A stretch of 64,000 nt of DNA from Anaerolineae bacterium. GTDB lineage: Bacteria > Chloroflexota > Anaerolineae > Aggregatilineales > Phototrophicaceae. How positions within the stretch are numbered: the first letter of the stretch is position 1; each line of letters starts with the position of its first letter. Positions 5,458 through 51,764 of the stretch are shown one piece after another. The notes beneath the pieces are model-generated. The model was not told the DNA's origin, ran no database searches, and saw only the letters and a program-made list of their open reading frames with translations. The DNA lies in contig JAJEGA010000001.1 of NCBI GenBank assembly GCA_022820125.1, positions 1 to 64,000 of the forward strand, read 5' to 3'. The translations under genes were made by a program, and so were the position numbers.

Positions 5458-5550
5458 TGTAGGGGCGTCGCATCGTGACGCCCTTCAGGCCATGTTGAGC
5501 GCGTTTCAGCGGGTCGCGCAGGTCGCGTAGACATTAACCGCCGACACTAA
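5458..5550. repeat. Dispersed repeat cluster: palindrome family A plus family B (reverse orientation)
   Basis: 5458-5483 is a family A palindrome (TGTAGGGGCGTC, short loop, GACGCCC). 5511-5550 is a family B copy in reverse orientation: its reverse complement reads AGTGTCGGCGGTTAATGTCT followed by ACGCGACCTGCGCGACCC. Both lie in the gap between the binding-protein and permease genes of system 1. Confidence 0.7.
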
Positions 5551-29797: not shown

Positions 29798-29872
29798 TGT
29801 AGGGGCGACTCTTGAGTCGCCCGCGCCCAACAACATAGAAGTCAACGGGCGATCCAAGGATCGCCCCTACAG
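29798..29872. repeat. Head-to-head pair of family A palindromes
   Basis: 29798-29824 reads forward (TGTAGGGGCGACTC TT GAGTCGCCCGC); 29846-29872 reads in reverse (GGGCGATCC AA GGATCGCCCCTACA). They are separated by about 20 nt just upstream of the rhamnose isomerase gene. Confidence 0.8.
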
Positions 29873-31277: not shown

Positions 31278-31354
31278 TTGTAGGGGCGACTTATAAAGTC
31301 GCCCGTAATCCCGGAATATACCCGACGCGGGCGACCTGGTAGGTCGCCCCTACA
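31278..31354. repeat. Head-to-head pair of family A palindromes
   Basis: 31278-31305 forward (TGTAGGGGCGACTT AT AAAGTCGCCCG) and 31327-31354 reverse (GCGGGCGACCT GGT AGGTCGCCCCTACA). They lie between the rhamnose isomerase and aldolase/dehydrogenase genes, so transcripts across them would carry two hairpins. Confidence 0.8.
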
Positions 31355-36580: not shown

Positions 36581-36653
36581 CAGGGGCAGAAAGACTCGAA
36601 CTCTCGACCTACGGTTTTGGAGACCGTCGCTCTACCAACTGAGCTATACCCCT
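36581..36653 (-). tRNA. tRNA-Trp (CCA anticodon)
   Basis: 73 nt without encoded CCA end. Acceptor AGGGGTA pairs with TGCCCCT; D-arm AGCTCAGTTGGTAGAGC; anticodon arm ACGGT-CTCCAAA-ACCGT; T-loop TTCGAGT. Located between rpmG and secE, its frequent place in bacteria. Confidence 0.95.
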
Positions 36654-36702
36654 ACTTATCGGCGCGTCCCGTGACTACTATACACCATTACGCGGCGCAA
36701 AT

Positions 36703-36864
36703 CTACTTGGTTTCTCGATACAGCACATGCTTGCGCAGGTAAGGATCGAACTTGCGCAACTCTAGCCGTCCCTGCGTATTGCGCCGGCTCTTCTCGGTGA
36801 TGTAAATGTGCCCGCTTTCCGTGCTGCGCAGCTTGACGACGATGCGCTGCCCTTTCTTCGCCAT
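36703..36864 (-). CDS. rpmG: 50S ribosomal protein L33
   Basis: 53 residues ([20 protein letters not shown], ending [12 protein letters not shown]). It matches the L33 family including the [18 protein letters not shown] core. The zinc-binding Cys pairs of some L33 versions are absent, so this is the Cys-free (C-minus) type. It lies between tRNA-Thr and tRNA-Trp in the secE-nusG region. Confidence 0.93.
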
Positions 36865-36905
36865 GGTCTTCCCTTTAGCTAATCAACTGTAATTGTCAGG
36901 ACAAG

Positions 36906-36977
36906 AGCCTCCGATGAGATTTGAACTCATGACCTCGCCCTTACCAAGGGAGCGCTCTACCCCTGAGCTACGGAGGC
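36906..36977 (-). tRNA. tRNA-Thr (GGT anticodon)
   Basis: 72 nt with discriminator base. Acceptor GCCTCCG/CGGAGGC; D-arm GCTCAGGGGTAGAGC; anticodon loop TTGGTAA; T-arm ATGAG-TTCAAAT-CTCAT. One T-C mismatch in the anticodon stem is notable but tolerated. Confidence 0.9.
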
Positions 36978-37021
36978 GCGGAACCGCCCGCCTCAATGAG
37001 ACGAATGGTCCATGTAAACAG

Positions 37022-37104
37022 TGGGCCGGACTGGATTCGAACCAGTGTAGGCTCTCGCCAGCGAATTTACAGTCCGCCCCCTTTAGCCACTCGGGCACCG
37101 ACCC
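37022..37104 (-). tRNA. tRNA-Tyr (GTA anticodon)
   Basis: 83 nt, class II with a long variable arm (GGCGAGAGCC). Acceptor GGGTCGG/CCGGCCC; anticodon loop CTGTAAA flanked by GCGGA and TTCGC; T-loop TTCGAAT. Confidence 0.95.
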
Positions 37105-37127
37105 AACTCATACGGCTGTTAAGCCCT

Positions 37128-37200
37128 AGCCACCACTGGGACTCGAACCCAGAACAACCTGTTTACAAAACAGGCGCTCTGCCAATTGAGCTATGGTGGC
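37128..37200 (-). tRNA. tRNA-Thr (TGT anticodon)
   Basis: 73 nt. Acceptor GCCACCA/TGGTGGC; anticodon arm CCTGT-TTTGTAA-ACAGG; T-arm CTGGG-TTCGAGT-CCCAG. First gene of the tRNA/ribosomal block, just downstream of the promoter at 37212-37240. Confidence 0.95.
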
Positions 37201-44231: not shown

Positions 44232-46391
44232 ATGACCTTGCCACCCGATTACGCCGAACGCGTCTATGCCGGGGCGCTCGGCAAAATGATTGGCGTCTAC
44301 CTGGGCCGCCCGATCGAAGGCTGGTCTTATGAGATGATCATGAAACGATTTGGCGAGATCAATTATTATGTGCATGAGGCGCTTGATCAGCCGCTGATCG
44401 TGACCGATGACGATCTCTCTGGCACATTTACCTTCGTGCGCGCCCTGCCGGATTACGGCAACAGCCCGAATCTGACCCCGGCGCAGATCGGCCAGACCTG
44501 GCTCAATTACATCATCGAAGGCAAGACAATCTTGTGGTGGGGCGGCATCGGCGATGTCACTGAACATACCGCCTATCTCCGGCTGAAAGACGGCATTCAG
44601 CCTCCACGCAGCGGCTCGATTGAACTCAACGGTCCGGTCATGGCGCAGCAGATCGGCTCGCAGATCTTCATTGACAGCTGGGGCATGATCGCGCCTGGCG
44701 ACCCCGAACTGGCGGCCGACCTGGCGCGAAGGGCGGCCAGCGTCAGCCACGACGGCGAAGCTATCTATGGCGCGCAGGTGGTCGCCGCCTTGGTCGCGCA
44801 GGCTTTCGTCGAAGCGGACACGAATAAGCTGATCGACGACGCCGCCGCCTTGATCCCCGCCGATTCGATCATCTACCGAATGATTGAGCAGGTACGCGCC
44901 TGGCACGCCCGGCAGCCGGATTGGCATCAGACGCTGCGGCAGATCGACCGCGAATACAACCGCGAGCGTTATCCCGGCAATTGCCATATCGTACCGAACC
45001 ATGCGCGGATTATCCTGGCGCTGCTCTATGGCGACGACGACTTTCAAAAGTCAATGATGGTGGTTAACACATCGGGTTTTGACACCGACTGCAACTCGGG
45101 CAATGTTGGCTGCATTATGGGCATAATGAAAGGTCTTGCCGGGCTCGACGCCGGACCGGACTGGCGCGGTCCGATGGCGGATCGCCTGTATCTGCCAACG
45201 GCGGATGGCGGCAGCGCCATCAGCGACGCGCTCGGCGAAAGCACCAAGCTGGTTAATATCGCTCGCGGGATGCGGGGCTTGGCGCCGCACAAGCCGAAAG
45301 ACGGAGCGCGATATCATTTCAGCCTGCCAGGGTCGGTGCAGGGTTTTGAGCCTGAAACGGCGCCAGAATGCAAGAATACGGCGACCATCGAAAATGTGCC
45401 GGCGCCGGGCAAAAGCGGCGACCGCTCGCTGGCGATTCGCTTTCACCGGCTGGCGGCGGGGCGCATCGCCAGAGTCGCAACGCTCACCTTTATCCCATCC
45501 AAGGAAATCGCTGATTATTTTGACGAGCGCGGCTACCGCTTGCTGGCGTCGCCGACCTTGTATCCGGGGCAAGTTGTCCGCGCCCGCCTCGCGGCCGATG
45601 CCGCCAATGCAGATGCGGTGACGCTGCGACTCTACGCGCGCCATTACAACGAAGACGATGCGCTAGAGATCATCGGCAGCGAGCCCGTCGAGCTTGCGCC
45701 CGACGCCGAAGCCAAGCTGTCCTGGCTAGTGCCGCAGACTGGCAACCAGCCCATCGCCTGCATCGGCATCGAGATTGCCGGTGAGCATGGCGCCAGCGGC
45801 AGCGTCTATCTGGATCGGCTGGCATGGGACGGCGCGCCCAACATAAGCCTGAACCGTCCAACCATCAGCCAAGCTGGGCAAGAGAAGCGAAAGCGGCCAG
45901 TATTTTGGAAGAAAGCCTGGATTTACGCGCTGGATTCCAGCGAACGTTTCGATTCCTGGGATTACTGGACAAATGCCTACCGGCTGATACAGAATCAAGG
46001 CCGCGGTCTGCTAATGCAAGGCACACGCGACTGGATCGATTATCAGTTTGCCGCCACCGCCATGCCGCGCGTCTGCGAAGCCGGGGGGATCGCCGTGCGC
46101 GTGCAGGGCTTGCAGCGATATTACGCCCTGCTGCTGGATCAAGATCGGACACGCATCGTACGCGTCCTGGATGGCGAAACCATCCTGGCGCAGAACGACT
46201 CAGGCTGGTCGGTCGAGCAGAGTTACGCGCTCAAGTTGATTGTCGCAGGCAATAGGCTGAGCGCCTTCGTCAATGGCGAGCAGACGCTGCAAGCAATCGA
46301 CCCGGAAAATGCCTTGACCGGCGGCGGTATCGCCCTTATCGCGCAAACCGGATTCATCTTCTTCGACGACGTTTCCGTCCGTCCCCTCTAA
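44232..46391 (+). CDS. ADP-ribosylglycohydrolase-family protein with C-terminal carbohydrate-binding-like domains
   Basis: 719 residues. Residues 1-350 show the DraG fold: GALGKMIGVYLGRPIEG, the metal Asp pair in IVTDDDLSGTFTF, and the second metal site in NTSGFDTDCNSGNVGCIMG. Residues about 365-540 look like a beta-sandwich and about 575-719 like a LamG/DUF1080-type domain ending IFFDDVSVRP. AGGAG precedes the ATG. The gene context (GH32, importer, SnoaL) argues for an N- or O-glycosidic bond in a metabolite rather than protein ADP-ribose removal; that is inference. Confidence 0.82.
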   Translation: MTLPPDYAERVYAGALGKMIGVYLGRPIEGWSYEMIMKRFGEINYYVHEALDQPLIVTDDDLSGTFTFVRALPDYGNSPNLTPAQIGQTWLNYIIEGKTILWWGGIGDVTEHTAYLRLKDGIQPPRSGSIELNGPVMAQQIGSQIFIDSWGMIAPGDPELAADLARRAASVSHDGEAIYGAQVVAALVAQAFVEADTNKLIDDAAALIPADSIIYRMIEQVRAWHARQPDWHQTLRQIDREYNRERYPGNCHIVPNHARIILALLYGDDDFQKSMMVVNTSGFDTDCNSGNVGCIMGIMKGLAGLDAGPDWRGPMADRLYLPTADGGSAISDALGESTKLVNIARGMRGLAPHKPKDGARYHFSLPGSVQGFEPETAPECKNTATIENVPAPGKSGDRSLAIRFHRLAAGRIARVATLTFIPSKEIADYFDERGYRLLASPTLYPGQVVRARLAADAANADAVTLRLYARHYNEDDALEIIGSEPVELAPDAEAKLSWLVPQTGNQPIACIGIEIAGEHGASGSVYLDRLAWDGAPNISLNRPTISQAGQEKRKRPVFWKKAWIYALDSSERFDSWDYWTNAYRLIQNQGRGLLMQGTRDWIDYQFAATAMPRVCEAGGIAVRVQGLQRYYALLLDQDRTRIVRVLDGETILAQNDSGWSVEQSYALKLIVAGNRLSAFVNGEQTLQAIDPENALTGGGIALIAQTGFIFFDDVSVRPL

Positions 46392-46400
46392 TCGGCGTCG

Positions 46401-47828
46401 CTAATGCCAGATGGAGCGCATCAGCCAGGCTGACAGTCTCTTGACCTCACCTTTCCCGAATAAGCGCAGCCCCTGGCTCTGGGCGCTCGTCGGGTAGATG
46501 CGGCTGCAAATGCTGGTTCGGCCATTGGCGATGATCTCCAAAACCGAGCCGTCAAGCAAAATGCGCAGCTGCAAGCTTTCACCAGGCGCGAGCTCGTGCG
46601 GCGCTTCGTTGGCGAAGGCTTCCTGTTCCTCGTCCTGGCTCGCTCGCTCGCGGTTCACGCTCAGCAGTTTGGTATCCGGATTGTAGCTGAGGCGCGTTTC
46701 TTCGCTGCCATCAGCGGCGCAGGCGACTGCCAGACCAACGCTGCCCTCCGGCTTGATTTCAAGCTCGATATCGAGCGCCGCACCCCGGAGCTCGAGATCG
46801 CGCTCGCCGCCGGTCAGCCGCAAATCGCTGATCTCAGTACATTGGCCGCGAAGGCGCTTTAGCTCCGGCACGGGGGTCATGTGGAGCCGTCCATCTCGCA
46901 AGCTCAGTTCACGCGGGATTGAATGGCATCCGGCCCAGCCGGCGGCGACATGCGCGTCTTCACTGCGGCCCTCGCGCAGCCAGCCCCAGAGCAGGCGGCG
47001 GCCCCGCGCGTCTTCCATCGTGAAGGGCGCGTAAAAATAAGCGTGATCCAGGATCCCGCTGGTCTCGGGCCTAAACTGCTGATCCAAATACTCGCCGATA
47101 AAGTAGAAAACGGTGAAGGGAATCCTTCTGCCCTTGCCCGCCACGATCAGCACCCACTTGTCCCCCAGCGGGAAAAACGAGGGGCATTCCCAGACGCAGC
47201 CGTCATTGGCATAGCTGCCCGTCAATAGCGGATGCAAGAATTCCCACTGGATCAGGTCAGTCGAACGATAGAGAAATACGGAACCGCCGCGGTTTTTGAT
47301 GCGCGAGGCGAGCAGCATATACCAGCACTCGCCTTCGCGCCATATCATCGGGTCGCGCAAATCGATGGTCTGATTGGCTAAGTCCGGGATTTCGCTCAAG
47401 ATCGGGTTGCCGCTGTATTTCTCCCAAGTGAGCAAGCCATCCTGGCTGGTGGCGATGCATTGCGATTGCTGACCATACCCGTCTGGACCAACACCGGTAT
47501 AAACCGCCGTCGCTAGGCCTTCGTTATCCACCACAGTGCCAGACCAGCAGCCGGTCGCATCGGGACCGCCCGGCGTTGGCGCAAGCGCAACCGGCAGATC
47601 CCGCCAGTGAATCGCGTCGTCGCTGACCGCATGCCCCCAATAAGCGAGACCAAAGCGGGGGCTCTCCGGGTGGTACTGGTAGAAGAGATGATACTCTCCA
47701 TCCCAGTGGATCACGCCGTTGGGGTCGTTCATCCAGCTCGAGGGCGCGATGAAATGATAGCTGGGACGGTGGAAATCCTGCGCCAGGCTTCGGCGCTGCT
47801 CGGCGAAATCGCGATTCGTTGTGGTCAT
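46401..47828 (-). CDS. GH32 beta-fructosidase (sucrose/fructan hydrolase)
   Basis: 475 residues. All three GH32 motifs are visible: nucleophile Asp35 in SSWMNDPNG, transition-state RDP in IDLRDPMIW, and acid/base Glu in CVWECPSFF. A five-bladed propeller is followed by a C-terminal beta-sandwich ending ANGRTSICSRIYP. No signal peptide, so it acts on imported fructosides. It converges with the ADP-ribosylglycohydrolase-like gene with a 9-nt gap. Confidence 0.93.
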   Translation of the reverse strand: MTTTNRDFAEQRRSLAQDFHRPSYHFIAPSSWMNDPNGVIHWDGEYHLFYQYHPESPRFGLAYWGHAVSDDAIHWRDLPVALAPTPGGPDATGCWSGTVVDNEGLATAVYTGVGPDGYGQQSQCIATSQDGLLTWEKYSGNPILSEIPDLANQTIDLRDPMIWREGECWYMLLASRIKNRGGSVFLYRSTDLIQWEFLHPLLTGSYANDGCVWECPSFFPLGDKWVLIVAGKGRRIPFTVFYFIGEYLDQQFRPETSGILDHAYFYAPFTMEDARGRRLLWGWLREGRSEDAHVAAGWAGCHSIPRELSLRDGRLHMTPVPELKRLRGQCTEISDLRLTGGERDLELRGAALDIELEIKPEGSVGLAVACAADGSEETRLSYNPDTKLLSVNRERASQDEEQEAFANEAPHELAPGESLQLRILLDGSVLEIIANGRTSICSRIYPTSAQSQGLRLFGKGEVKRLSAWLMRSIWH

Positions 47829-48096
47829 TTCGAATCTTCCATGTTTTGCTATGTCAAATACATGCGACAGCGGCGCCCCTGTTATGAGCGCGCGTTTCTA
47901 TTGTTATGCTGTCTGGTTGATGTTCACCATTTATTCTATCCTGTCATTGGCAGTTTTTCTGACCCGTCTTTGACGGGAGTGGCAAATATCGTGGATATAA
48001 TTCTCTTTGCGAACACGACACAGGTTTTTTCACCACAGCCCCTCGCAAATCACGACTTGGCTCACACAAAATAACAAGCCCGCGACAATAAGAAGC

Positions 48097-48172
48097 TGTA
48101 GGGGCGTTTCGGCGAAACGCCCGAAGCGCATGTGGTCGGGACAGCGGGCGGCTCAGCGAGCCGCCCCTACAG
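48097..48172. repeat. Head-to-head pair of family A palindromes
   Basis: 48097-48122 forward (TGTAGGGGCGTTTC GGC GAAACGCCCG) and 48144-48172 reverse (GCGGGCGGCTC AGC GAGCCGCCCCTACAGA). Confidence 0.8.
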
Positions 48173-48264
48173 ACTTCTAATTATTTGCATGACTTACTTG
48201 GAATTACTGAGATTTTTTCTATGCTTGGCGCAGTTTTCAAGTCCACAGAATTCGCCACTCCCCT

Positions 48265-48306
48265 TTGACAGATAACTTGACTAAGTATAGGAGAATCTAG
48301 TATACT
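48265..48306 (+). promoter_or_regulatory. Promoter motifs before the structured RNA
   Basis: TTGACT (48277-48282), 18 nt, TATACT (48301-48306) is the best pair; TTGACA (48265-48270) with TATAGG (48286-48291) at 15 nt is an alternative that would include the whole 5' hairpin in the RNA. Confidence 0.45.
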
Positions 48307-48487
48307 CCCCTCAGCGTTAACTGAGGGGAGTACTTGGCTACTGCCGTCTGGCATGTCTGAAATGCCAGATGACCGTGAGCATCTGATGCCCGCGGACTCG
48401 AACAGTTAGCCTAATTGAAACGTAACCGTTCACAGCCTCCTCCTTTCAGAATAAACAAGCGCCGTGCCGGGCGCTTGTTTGCTTTCT
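48304..48487 (+). ncRNA. Candidate structured non-coding RNA of unknown class
   Basis: In order: perfect 11-bp hairpin (ACTCCCCTCAG 48304-48314 with CTGAGGGGAGT 48321-48331); a closing helix TTGGCTACTG (48334-48343) with CAGTTAGCCTAA (48403-48414), two bulged Ts; inside it an 8-bp hairpin TCTGGCAT/ATGCCAGA (48347-48369) and a small GCAT/ATGC hairpin; then a pyrimidine-rich single strand with CCTCCTCC, an anti-Shine-Dalgarno-like stretch; then the terminator. No open frame spans it. It does not match 6S, SRP, RNase P or tmRNA as I know them. Confidence 0.55.
48453..48487 (+). terminator. Strong intrinsic terminator of the structured RNA
   Basis: 11-bp perfect stem AAACAAGCGCC/GGCGCTTGTTT with a 6-nt loop, followed by GCTTTCT. 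It may also serve the convergent permease operon in part. Confidence 0.75.
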
Positions 48488-48543
48488 GGCGAAGGATTTC
48501 GCCTCGAATAACTTAACACAATTCTTGAATGTCGGCGAGTTAC

Positions 48544-49455
48544 TTAACCCTTCAAGCCCACCGAGGCGATGCCGCCGATGAGTTGCTCCTGGGCGAAGAA
48601 GAAGACCAGGATAGGCGGGATCATCATCACAAGGTTAGCCGCCATAAGCAGATTCGTGTTGGGGTTGTAACGCGTGGCGAAGTTCGCCAAGCCGATTGCG
48701 ATGGTGAACTGATCGGTATTGTTCAGGTAGATGAGCGGTCCCAGCAAATCGCCCCAGGAGCTCAGAAACATGAAGACCACCACCACCGCCAGCACCGGCT
48801 TGCACAGCGGCAAGATGATGAAGCGAAAGATGCCAAAGTAGCTGCAGCCGTCGATCTTCGCCGCTTCGTCCAGATCGCGCGGGAAGGTGCGCATATACTG
48901 ACGTATGAGGAAGATGAAGAAGGCGTTGCCAGCAAATGACGGCACAATCAAGGGCAGATAAGTCCCGTACCAGCCTAACTCAAGAAAGAGCAAAAATTGT
49001 GGAATCATCTGCGATTGCCAGGGAATCAGCATGGTGATAATCAAGACGTTGAACAGAAATCCGCTGCCGCGGAAGCGCAGCCTGGCGAAGGCGTAAGCCA
49101 CCAACGTACACGAGAAAATCGTGCCAACAACATTTCCGCCAAAAATAATCAATGTATTCAGCGTGAAGCGCAGGAAGGGGCGCACCGGGTCCAGCAGCGC
49201 GATTTCGAAGTTGCGCCATTCAAAGTGCTCGGTGGGGAACCACTGCGGCGGGATGCTAAAATAGGGAACATTGTCCGGCTTGAGCGCCGCGGTTAGCATC
49301 CAGGAAACCGGAAGCAGCACAAAGCCGCAGAGCAAAAGAAGAATCGCGTAGAGCGCCAGCAGGCGCAGGGTTTTGCGCGCGCGCGGCACAATATCATCGC
49401 GCAGCCGCCGCATGACAATATCGCGAGATGGATTCAGAGACGGGCTGCCGCGCAT
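48544..49455 (-). CDS. CUT1 sugar ABC permease, MalG-type (system 3)
   Basis: 303 residues. The ATG lies 2 nt after the stop of the MalF-type gene, with GGAGGG upstream. EAA loop DLDEAAKIDGCSYFGIFRFI and the C-terminal GGIASVGLKG motif are canonical. About six helices. Last gene of the system 3 operon. Confidence 0.9.
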   Translation of the reverse strand: MRGSPSLNPSRDIVMRRLRDDIVPRARKTLRLLALYAILLLLCGFVLLPVSWMLTAALKPDNVPYFSIPPQWFPTEHFEWRNFEIALLDPVRPFLRFTLNTLIIFGGNVVGTIFSCTLVAYAFARLRFRGSGFLFNVLIITMLIPWQSQMIPQFLLFLELGWYGTYLPLIVPSFAGNAFFIFLIRQYMRTFPRDLDEAAKIDGCSYFGIFRFIILPLCKPVLAVVVVFMFLSSWGDLLGPLIYLNNTDQFTIAIGLANFATRYNPNTNLLMAANLVMMIPPILVFFFAQEQLIGGIASVGLKG

Positions 49456-49457
49456 AA

Positions 49458-50417
49458 CTATGACTTGCCCTCCTCGCTTTCGTAATAGACCCAGCGTTCG
49501 GAAGTGCGAAACGTGATCAAAATGACGATGGTCGCAATGACGACCAATACCCAGGAAAGCGCCGAGGCATAACCAAAACGCCCATTCTGGAAGCCTTCTT
49601 CATAAACATTGAGCAGATAGAATTGCAGCGCGCTCGCCCGCGTTCCGCCTCGCCCCGCCAGCACATAAGCCACGTCAAAGACCTGAAATGCCGCGACCAA
49701 ACCGGTAATGAGCTGGAAGAATATGCTCGGCGTCAGCATGGGCACGGTCACAAAGCGAAACTTCTGCGAGGCGTTGGCGCCGTCAATGGTTGCCGCTTCA
49801 TAAAGGTGGGGCGGGATATTCTGCAGCCCGGCCAGGTAAATGATGACCCCGCCGCCGACGCCCCACAAACCCATCAAGATAACCGCCGGTATCGCCCAGT
49901 CGCGGCTGGCAAGCCAGCGGGGCGGCTGCGCGATGCCAATCGCCCCCAAGACTTGATTGACCACGCCGACATCGGGGTTCAGCAATATGGACCACAAAAC
50001 GGCGACCGCGGTGCCGGCGATAACCGATGGCATGAACAGCACCGTGCGGAAGAAATACATGCCGCGTATTCGCTGATTGAGCAGCAATGCCAGCGATAGA
50101 CTGACCACTGTATAGATCGGCAGCGACATAATGACGAAGCGGAATGTCACCCGAAGCGAATTATAAAAGTCGCGATCGGAGAACATCTTCTCGTAGTTCT
50201 TTAGCCCGACCCAGTTCGGTGGCGTCAGCAGGTTCCAGTCCGTCAAGCTGATGAGCAAGGATGCGATGACCGGACCGATGATGAAGACAACCAAGCCGAT
50301 TAGCCAAGGGGACAGGAAGAGGTAGGCGACGCGTTCTTCGCGCCGTTCCATTTTCCCCAACGTCCGCCCGCCGCGAAACCGGCCTCCAAGGCGAGAATGT
50401 TTTATAGCTGCCTGCAT
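49458..50417 (-). CDS. CUT1 sugar ABC permease, MalF-type (system 3)
   Basis: 319 residues; the true start may be the ATG at 50351 (MERREERVAYLFLSPWLIGL), which has a GGGGA just upstream and fits the family better. EAA loop HLYEAATIDGANASQKFRFV. About six helices. Follows the binding-protein gene after about 70 nt. Confidence 0.88.
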   Translation of the reverse strand: MQAAIKHSRLGGRFRGGRTLGKMERREERVAYLFLSPWLIGLVVFIIGPVIASLLISLTDWNLLTPPNWVGLKNYEKMFSDRDFYNSLRVTFRFVIMSLPIYTVVSLSLALLLNQRIRGMYFFRTVLFMPSVIAGTAVAVLWSILLNPDVGVVNQVLGAIGIAQPPRWLASRDWAIPAVILMGLWGVGGGVIIYLAGLQNIPPHLYEAATIDGANASQKFRFVTVPMLTPSIFFQLITGLVAAFQVFDVAYVLAGRGGTRASALQFYLLNVYEEGFQNGRFGYASALSWVLVVIATIVILITFRTSERWVYYESEEGKS

Positions 50418-50486
50418 AAGCTAAAAAGCCGCAACATGGCGCCGCAGGCCCCTGAAGCGGCCCACAGCGCCATGTCTTTAGCGCAA

Positions 50487-51764
50487 TTATTCGGATTCGA
50501 AATTGTCCCAGGTTTCCCAGAGCTGATCCAGGTCGTCCTGAATGCCTGGCGCGATCTCATCAAGCGCCTCTTGCGCCGGTACGCCATCTTCGATCATCAA
50601 GCTATTAATCGCCTCGGCGATCTCCCCATAAGCGTCCCAGACAGTCGGAACGAAAACGGTCGCGCGGCCCAGGTTAATGGCGTCCAGCAATTCCTGGCGG
50701 CCCTCGCTGCCTTCCGCCCAGTTCATCTCCTCCGCCAGGCGCATGTTCATCGGCAGCCCGCCAGCCTCGGCGCGCATACGGTTGCCTTCCGTCGCCCAGA
50801 AGAGGATAAATTGCAGCGCCTCTTCCAGGTTGTCGCTGCCGCTGAGCGCCATCAATTCATCAGAGCCGGTGTACACCCAGGCCGGATCCCCCTCAGATTC
50901 CACCGGCGGCGGCGCGGCGCCCCAATTCACGCCGGCAGCTTCCAGCAAGGGCTGGGCTATCGGGCTGTCAGCCATCGCCATCGCCAACTGCCCCGCTGCC
51001 AACATCCCATCGGCGGAGTTGCCCGCCAGGTTCAGGTCAGCCGAAGTCAGGATGCCTTCCGTGCCCGCCATATCCGCCACGACTTGATAGAAGTGCGCGG
51101 TCGCCTCGTCATTGACATAGCCGATGACGCTGCGGCCATCTTCGCTGAAGTAATTTGCGGCGTCCGTCCACCAGGGCATGGGCAGCGTCCCGCCCCAAAC
51201 CCGCTCCGACATATCATCGCTGTACACCGTAAGCCGGGCGACGAGCTCGGCATATTCGTCAATCGTGATCGGCGCCGTCGGCGAAAGATGCGCTACGCCA
51301 GCGGCATCAAAGACATCCTTGTTGTAGAAGATATTGTATCCGGCTGTGAAGGTGCCCAGGCAGTACACTTGACCGTCCAGCGCGCAGTTTCTCGATACCG
51401 CACCGGCATTGTAGTCTTCGATATCGACGCCCGCAGACTCCAAGACGTCGTCAATCGGCGCGACCAATCCAGCCCTGATCCAGCGGATAACGTAGGGAAA
51501 CGCGATATCCGGCGGCTGCCCGGCGAGGAATGCCGTGTCTACTTTAGTGACATATTCGCCTTCCGGCACATCGGTGATCTGGACTGTGATGTTCGGATGC
51601 GCGGCTTCAAAAGCCTCGACCACCGAGGGCAAGAAGCCGGTGCCGTCCAGAAACATCCACAAATCAAGCGTCACCTCTTCATCCTGCGCGGCCGCCGCGC
51701 CAAGCGAGACAAGCAACAGCATTGCGCTGGCTGCCACGAGTAGAATTCTGCTTAAGCCTTTCAT
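50487..51764 (-). CDS. CUT1 sugar ABC transporter substrate-binding protein (system 3)
   Basis: 425 residues with a Sec signal peptide (LLVAASAMLLLVSLGAAAA, cleavage near AQD). SBP_bac_1 body: AFEAAHPNITVQITDVPEGE, PPDIAFPYVIRWIRAGLV and the C-terminal region AINSLMIEDGVPAQEALDEI. GGAGA precedes the start. First gene of the system 3 operon; no regulator or ATPase is adjacent. GH32 next to this operon hints at a fructoside ligand. Confidence 0.88.
   Translation of the reverse strand: MKGLSRILLVAASAMLLLVSLGAAAAQDEEVTLDLWMFLDGTGFLPSVVEAFEAAHPNITVQITDVPEGEYVTKVDTAFLAGQPPDIAFPYVIRWIRAGLVAPIDDVLESAGVDIEDYNAGAVSRNCALDGQVYCLGTFTAGYNIFYNKDVFDAAGVAHLSPTAPITIDEYAELVARLTVYSDDMSERVWGGTLPMPWWTDAANYFSEDGRSVIGYVNDEATAHFYQVVADMAGTEGILTSADLNLAGNSADGMLAAGQLAMAMADSPIAQPLLEAAGVNWGAAPPPVESEGDPAWVYTGSDELMALSGSDNLEEALQFILFWATEGNRMRAEAGGLPMNMRLAEEMNWAEGSEGRQELLDAINLGRATVFVPTVWDAYGEIAEAINSLMIEDGVPAQEALDEIAPGIQDDLDQLWETWDNFESE

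Follow-up and report, generated by a model that had tools for sequence, protein, structure and literature searches.

A candidate type I toxin-antitoxin-like module with conserved signals on both strands, dispersed within one genus of Chloroflexota

Positions 48277-48503 of the window, i.e., the 64,000-nucleotide stretch of DNA analysed here, hold a structured element that forms a stand-alone module of approximately 230 bp. It carries conserved elements on both strands together with RNA structure and complementarity, and DNA and covariance searches revealed ten copies within the genus, in 8 of its 34 genomes, dispersed over six unrelated genomic places. We judge, with modest confidence, that it is a type I toxin-antitoxin-like module, in which a small basic, mostly hydrophobic peptide would be encoded on the minus strand and controlled by a cis-antisense RNA from the plus strand. 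The two transcripts, translation of the peptide, its toxicity and its neutralisation are what we infer from these elements. The features are collected in Table 1.

Table 1. Features of the module and its flanking genes (positions in the window)
Feature	Position	Strand	Remarks
Left neighbour, GH32 gene	start 47828	-	
Promoter of the plus-strand RNA	48277..48306	+	TTGACT 48277-48282, 18 nt, TATACT 48301-48306; 10 of 12 matches
Palindrome TACTCCCCTCAG-N6-CTGAGGGGAGTA	48303..48332		spans the -10 to the start of the plus-strand RNA; would be the 3' hairpin of the minus-strand mRNA
Predicted minus-strand mRNA	48303..48503	-	3' end uncertain; conserved to 48503 in 10/10 copies; fold z = -10.0
Predicted antisense RNA, ~170 nt	48313..48484	+	start placed by the -10 and end by the terminator-like hairpin; fold z = -5.7; P3 covariation
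Closing helix P0	48321..48449	+	CUGAGGGGAG (48321-48330) with CUCCUUUCAG (48440-48449); 10 bp
31-codon ORF, GTG start, TAG stop	48338..48433	-	putative peptide (M)NGYVSIRLTVRVRGHQMLTVIWHFRHARRQ
Hairpin P2	48345..48371	+	stem nearly invariant
Hairpin P3	48373..48395	+	covarying stem; absent from the G032 copy
Hairpin P4 (GAACRGUU/AAYCGUUC)	48400..48431	+	one constant A-C mismatch in most copies
Shine-Dalgarno GAAAGGAGGAGG	48436..48447	-	complement of C-rich CCTCCTCC
Terminator-like hairpin	48455..48478	+	followed by TTTGCTTT; within the 5' leader of the minus-strand mRNA
5' hairpin of the mRNA, GGCGAAAUCCUUCGCC	48488..48503	-	its UCCUU can pair with the Shine-Dalgarno AAGGA
-10 of the minus-strand promoter (TGT-TAAGTT)	48510..48518	-	-15 to -7 relative to G at 48503
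Right neighbour, ABC permease	stop at 48544	-	

Distribution and genomic context

Carrier genomes hold one or two copies each (two genomes hold two), and on the rpoB tree the presence pattern requires at least five changes. Similarity among the copies has sharp ends and extends beyond the terminator-like hairpin to 48503 in all ten. The neighbouring genes and their orientation vary by site, and a leader of a downstream gene was rejected on this ground; the preliminary description had likewise denied that the element leads a gene, and the six different sites agree with it. Independence of fixed neighbours, the six sites and presence in 8 of 34 genomes amount to a patchiness that is usual for type I modules and thus argue for the type I reading. 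In the copy of genome G032 (L043, near 4384), a deletion of 23 nt takes out P3 and throws the peptide out of frame; the -10 is weaker and the palindrome imperfect, and the copy has probably decayed.

Outside the genus, the remaining members of the family, the order and 400 sampled genomes of the phylum yielded no copy, only weak terminator-like matches. A contig-wide genome search returned the element's own seven genomes and three unrelated records, the latter scoring weakly or not at all with the model. Rfam release 15 contained no family at or above the gathering score and a permissive search was also empty, in keeping with the earlier remark that no known class matched. Phages and plasmids gave no DNA or peptide match and viral contigs gave none, so that a phage or plasmid origin was rejected. 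An insertion footprint was sought at sites that lack the module, where the flanks were too different for one to be defined.

The element had been placed between convergent gene ends. This holds for the right neighbour, which ends toward the element, but not for the left one, which starts on the element's side. Within 44232-51764 the GH32 glycosidase gene is accompanied by genes for an ADP-ribosylglycohydrolase-type protein and for two permeases and a binding protein of a sugar-type ABC transporter. Repeats of a REP/MITE-like family, bounded by TGTAGGGGCG...CGCCCCTACA, occur at 48097-48171, 29798-29871 and 31279-31354, with single ends at 5458, 22370, 26081, 27871 and 35302; the family gives 11 matches in the window against 0.07 expected, and in relatives without the module the intergenic sites are filled by similar repeats. 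Another short repeat of 24 bases adjoins the module at 48240-48263; at 96% identity, two other contigs, C121 and C107, carry it near their ends (117-140 in both), and it is present again at C1:88419-88442 of the same genome. Four tRNA genes are clustered on the minus strand at 36581-37200.

A structured RNA predicted on the plus strand

Based on the sequence of the window, the preliminary description had proposed a structured RNA, autonomous and with a promoter of its own, which is supported by the conserved promoter and by a fold better than chance. The TTGACT/TATACT pair that it named is present in all ten copies, as TTGAC followed by A or T, a spacer of 17-18 nt whose sequence is unconserved, and a TATACT-like -10. 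With TATACT as the -10, the RNA is expected to start near 48313-48314, at the end of the left arm of the palindrome, and the palindrome therefore cannot be the 5' hairpin of this RNA. Its perfect 11-bp pairing, as reported before, is correct: the core CTCCCCTCAG-N6-CTGAGGGGAG occupies 48305-48330, extended by TA/TA to 48303-48332, and its arms have changed jointly (C-G to U-A) in G015 and G026. Among the 34 genomes the palindrome recurs nowhere else above control level, for which reason an operator of a shared regulator was rejected.

When compared with shuffled sequence, the fold of 48294-48484 is far better than chance (z = -7.8), and from the predicted start (48313-48484) z is -5.7. The 5' end of the RNA pairs with CUCCUUUCAG, within the C-rich stretch, both in the alignment fold and in almost every copy folded singly; in this helix, P0, 96% of cells are paired, with one pair broken in three copies and another in one. 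A different closing helix had been described, 10 bp long and interrupted by two bulged Ts (GGCUACUG/CAGUUAGCC and flanking bases); it exists in the window but is not conserved, given that 87.5% of its cells pair, it breaks at 6 of 8 counted pairs and RNAalifold prefers another helix. The two hairpins assigned to its interior are real and correspond to P2 and P3. Homologues with compensatory changes, which the preliminary description had asked for as a check, were found: two pairs of P3 show two-sided changes with pairing retained, and one such change affects the terminator stem (A-U to G-C, G023b). The claimed terminator consists of a hairpin and a following T-run as stated, but a simple terminator scanner does not list it and the T-run is therefore only moderate.

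The C-rich stretch CCTCCTCC at 48436-48443 is present as had been noted, although it is mostly paired with the 5' end of the RNA rather than single-stranded, its mean unpaired probability being 0.01-0.39 in the ten predicted transcripts. This bears on the role first proposed for it. A stand-alone trans-acting small RNA would use the C-rich stretch, as a mimic of the 16S tail, to pair with the Shine-Dalgarno sites of mRNAs, with the minus-strand frame a by-product of complementarity. Known C-rich-motif trans-acting small RNAs have a conserved C-rich segment that pairs with Shine-Dalgarno sequences, and a Rho-independent terminator; unlike theirs, the present segment is mostly paired internally and complements the Shine-Dalgarno sequence of the same element. 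A structured RNA family with a conserved promoter of its own and a terminator, if only a moderate one, independent of neighbours would suit such an RNA, as would the absence of codon-level selection on the opposite ORF and a C-rich motif that matches 8-9 nt of the 16S tail exactly and is retained in both of its variants. However, its seed is mostly paired in the predicted transcripts, and it leaves unexplained the minus-strand -10, the conservation of 48485-48503 past the terminator, and a start codon and frame in register. We therefore consider a trans-acting RNA rather unlikely.

Minus-strand promoter, leader and reading frame

The DNA had been described as non-coding, a description that passes over the minus strand, where a Shine-Dalgarno sequence precedes a 31-codon frame. 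Upstream of both, the putative -10 retains T at -7 in 10/10 copies, A at -11 in 9/10 and T at -12 and at -15 in 8/10 each, and TG often precedes it. Its register is fixed relative to the conserved 5' hairpin, and none of 2000 shuffles matched the in-register TAnnnT; this, together with the plus-strand promoter kept in 10/10 copies, argues for the type I reading. The predicted mRNA folds even more strongly than the plus-strand RNA (z = -10.0 vs -5.7), and in every copy the UCCUU of its 5' hairpin could pair with the Shine-Dalgarno region. Strong folding of both RNAs with compensatory changes, combined with this pairing, points in the same direction. The predicted minus-strand mRNA has no clear terminator, which counts against this reading.

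The Shine-Dalgarno sequence, the complement of CCTCCTCCTTTC, is strong and exists among the copies as GAAAGGAGGAGG or GAGAGGAGGTGG. Since the 16S tail of the genus is GGATCACCTCCTTTC, both variants are good and the C-rich stretch is their complement. ATG or GTG follows AGGAGG after 5-6 nt and opens the 31-codon frame, whose start position, length and TAG stop are identical in nine of the ten copies; no other frame, on either strand, has a Shine-Dalgarno sequence throughout the nine intact copies. These signals, in 9/10 copies and with variants that fit the 16S tail, argue for the type I reading. They also leave a regulator acting in trans through a free C-rich strand unsupported, given that the strand is paired in the predicted transcript and is the complement of a Shine-Dalgarno sequence set 5-6 nt before ATG/GTG behind a conserved minus-strand promoter. 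Other frames are open for 25-60 codons as well, and openness alone is therefore weak evidence.

Across the copies the putative peptide is basic (+3 to +6), and its C-terminal half is hydrophobic, reading LVLLVVIWHF in many of them; the basic character and the hydrophobic stretch that most copies have count in favour of the type I reading. Against that reading, the stretch is short, at 10-12 residues (its ends are charged in most copies), and the copy in the window is the least hydrophobic. The peptide matches no family, including any recognised toxin family, and a peptide profile search for further homologues returned only the ten copies. Substitutions show no codon-position bias (21:23:25 events by position) and pN/pS is 0.70, not below the column-shuffle null (fraction 0.26), with the two overlapping structured RNAs lowering the power of both tests. 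The absent bias, the pN/pS value, the openness of other frames and the lack of a recognised toxin family all weigh against the type I reading. The peptide is thus backed by its signals and not by selection, and we infer its translation from the former.

The same sequence evidence would fit a small non-toxic peptide gene, e.g., for a small membrane regulator, that is tuned by an antisense RNA, with identical anatomy and no toxin-antitoxin function. In its favour, the peptide exceeds a classical membrane toxin in basicity and falls short of one in hydrophobicity, most of all in the window; nevertheless, patchy presence at many unlinked sites and the apparent decay in G032 are easier to reconcile with a dispensable module than with a housekeeping regulator, and we regard this explanation as quite improbable. 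A small mobile or repeat element that is non-coding, with a promoter on each strand and untranslated RNAs that serve the element itself or nothing, appears very unlikely. Speaking for it, the copies occupy six sites and their similarity ends sharply, and within the ORF span structure accounts for variability better than coding does (9/49 paired vs 28/41 unpaired sites are variable, a figure flattered by a structure partly derived from the same sequences). On the other hand, there are merely one or two copies per genome, the compared sites without the module show no clean insertion boundary, and the arrangement of Shine-Dalgarno sequence and start codon would have to be chance.

Proposed mechanism and relation to known systems

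In the type I reading, the module would contain two convergent, overlapping transcripts. The minus-strand mRNA, starting at about 48503, would be tightly folded, with an anti-Shine-Dalgarno segment in its 5' hairpin, and may end in the palindromic hairpin; its own fold would hide the Shine-Dalgarno sequence. From the plus-strand promoter, which is closer to consensus, a structured RNA of ~170 nt would be made, antisense to the whole ORF and the ribosome-binding site. It would bind the mRNA, probably through loops first, block ribosome entry and expose the duplex to degradation. A hidden Shine-Dalgarno sequence with an anti-Shine-Dalgarno segment before it and a covering antisense RNA, as in AapA/IsoA, and antisense coverage of the entire ORF with its ribosome-binding site, as in Ibs/Sib, are the reason for taking the module as type I toxin-antitoxin-like. 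Read at the sequence level, several hallmarks of such systems are present: a small ORF (below ~60 codons) with a ribosome-binding site in 9/10 copies, a predicted antisense RNA with its own opposite-strand promoter that fully overlaps the ORF and the Shine-Dalgarno sequence, and a predicted toxin mRNA with its own promoter (conserved -10) and inhibitory structure (z = -10.0, Shine-Dalgarno pairing). The preliminary description had named transcription solely as antisense of a neighbouring gene as a finding that would speak against it; this half applies: the RNA is most likely antisense, yet its target would be a small gene contained in the element itself.

A further arrangement is possible, although we consider it unlikely. 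The Shine-Dalgarno strand CUGAAAGGAG imitates the 3' arm of the palindrome, CUGAGGGGAG, and CUCCCCUCAG behind the ORF can therefore pair with either, i.e., with the other arm of the palindrome or, less well, with the Shine-Dalgarno region. The palindrome of this Chloroflexota type I family might thus act as a folding switch, being at once the start region of the antisense promoter, the 3' hairpin of the toxin mRNA and a Shine-Dalgarno decoy, in which case translation would depend on the presence of the 3' arm. To our knowledge such a switch has no counterpart elsewhere.

In Ibs/Sib of Escherichia coli the antisense RNA covers the entire coding region and the ribosome-binding site, and short repeated loci at several chromosomal places encode very small peptides (PMC4147584), as would be the case here with the same full coverage. 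The present module differs by its 31 codons, by its phylum, by a 5' leader with an anti-Shine-Dalgarno segment and by a palindrome behind the ORF. AapA/IsoA of Helicobacter pylori and relatives shares several chromosomal copies, a small peptide, a cis-overlapping antisense RNA, compensatory hairpin changes and a Shine-Dalgarno sequence that a long-distance interaction and an anti-Shine-Dalgarno segment upstream of it keep hidden (PMC6733600), the hiding being predicted here; in contrast, in most copies the present long-distance interaction would have two A-C mismatches when read on the minus strand. The msoT1/msoA1 locus of Microcystis aeruginosa is, as proposed here, a type I locus outside Proteobacteria, Firmicutes and Tenericutes that was first predicted from sequence (PMC12390103). 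That locus is cyanobacterial and its toxicity was assayed, and 3'-end processing and toxicity are features of AapA/IsoA; the present module, for which no sequence relation to Ibs/Sib (Rfam was silent) or AapA/IsoA was detected, is likened to all three on the basis of its sequence.

According to a 2025 paper, type I systems were previously found only in Proteobacteria, Firmicutes and Tenericutes, to which it adds Cyanobacteria, and the gap is probably due to search bias (PMC12390103). Orphan toxins and antitoxins of Chloroflexota are tallied in a marine survey, whose accessible part names no type I ones there (PMC12654330), and a literature search for 'type I toxin-antitoxin' with 'Chloroflexi' found no report. 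The module would add a new family to a known kind of system; from its phylum no earlier report was found. It also illustrates a general trap: a small RNA with a C-rich 'anti-Shine-Dalgarno' stretch may be the complement of a real ribosome-binding site, and both strands must therefore be read. The ten natural variants form a ready test set. If the type I reading is true, a dispersed module with full anatomy in uncultured Chloroflexota would extend the range of type I systems beyond four phyla.
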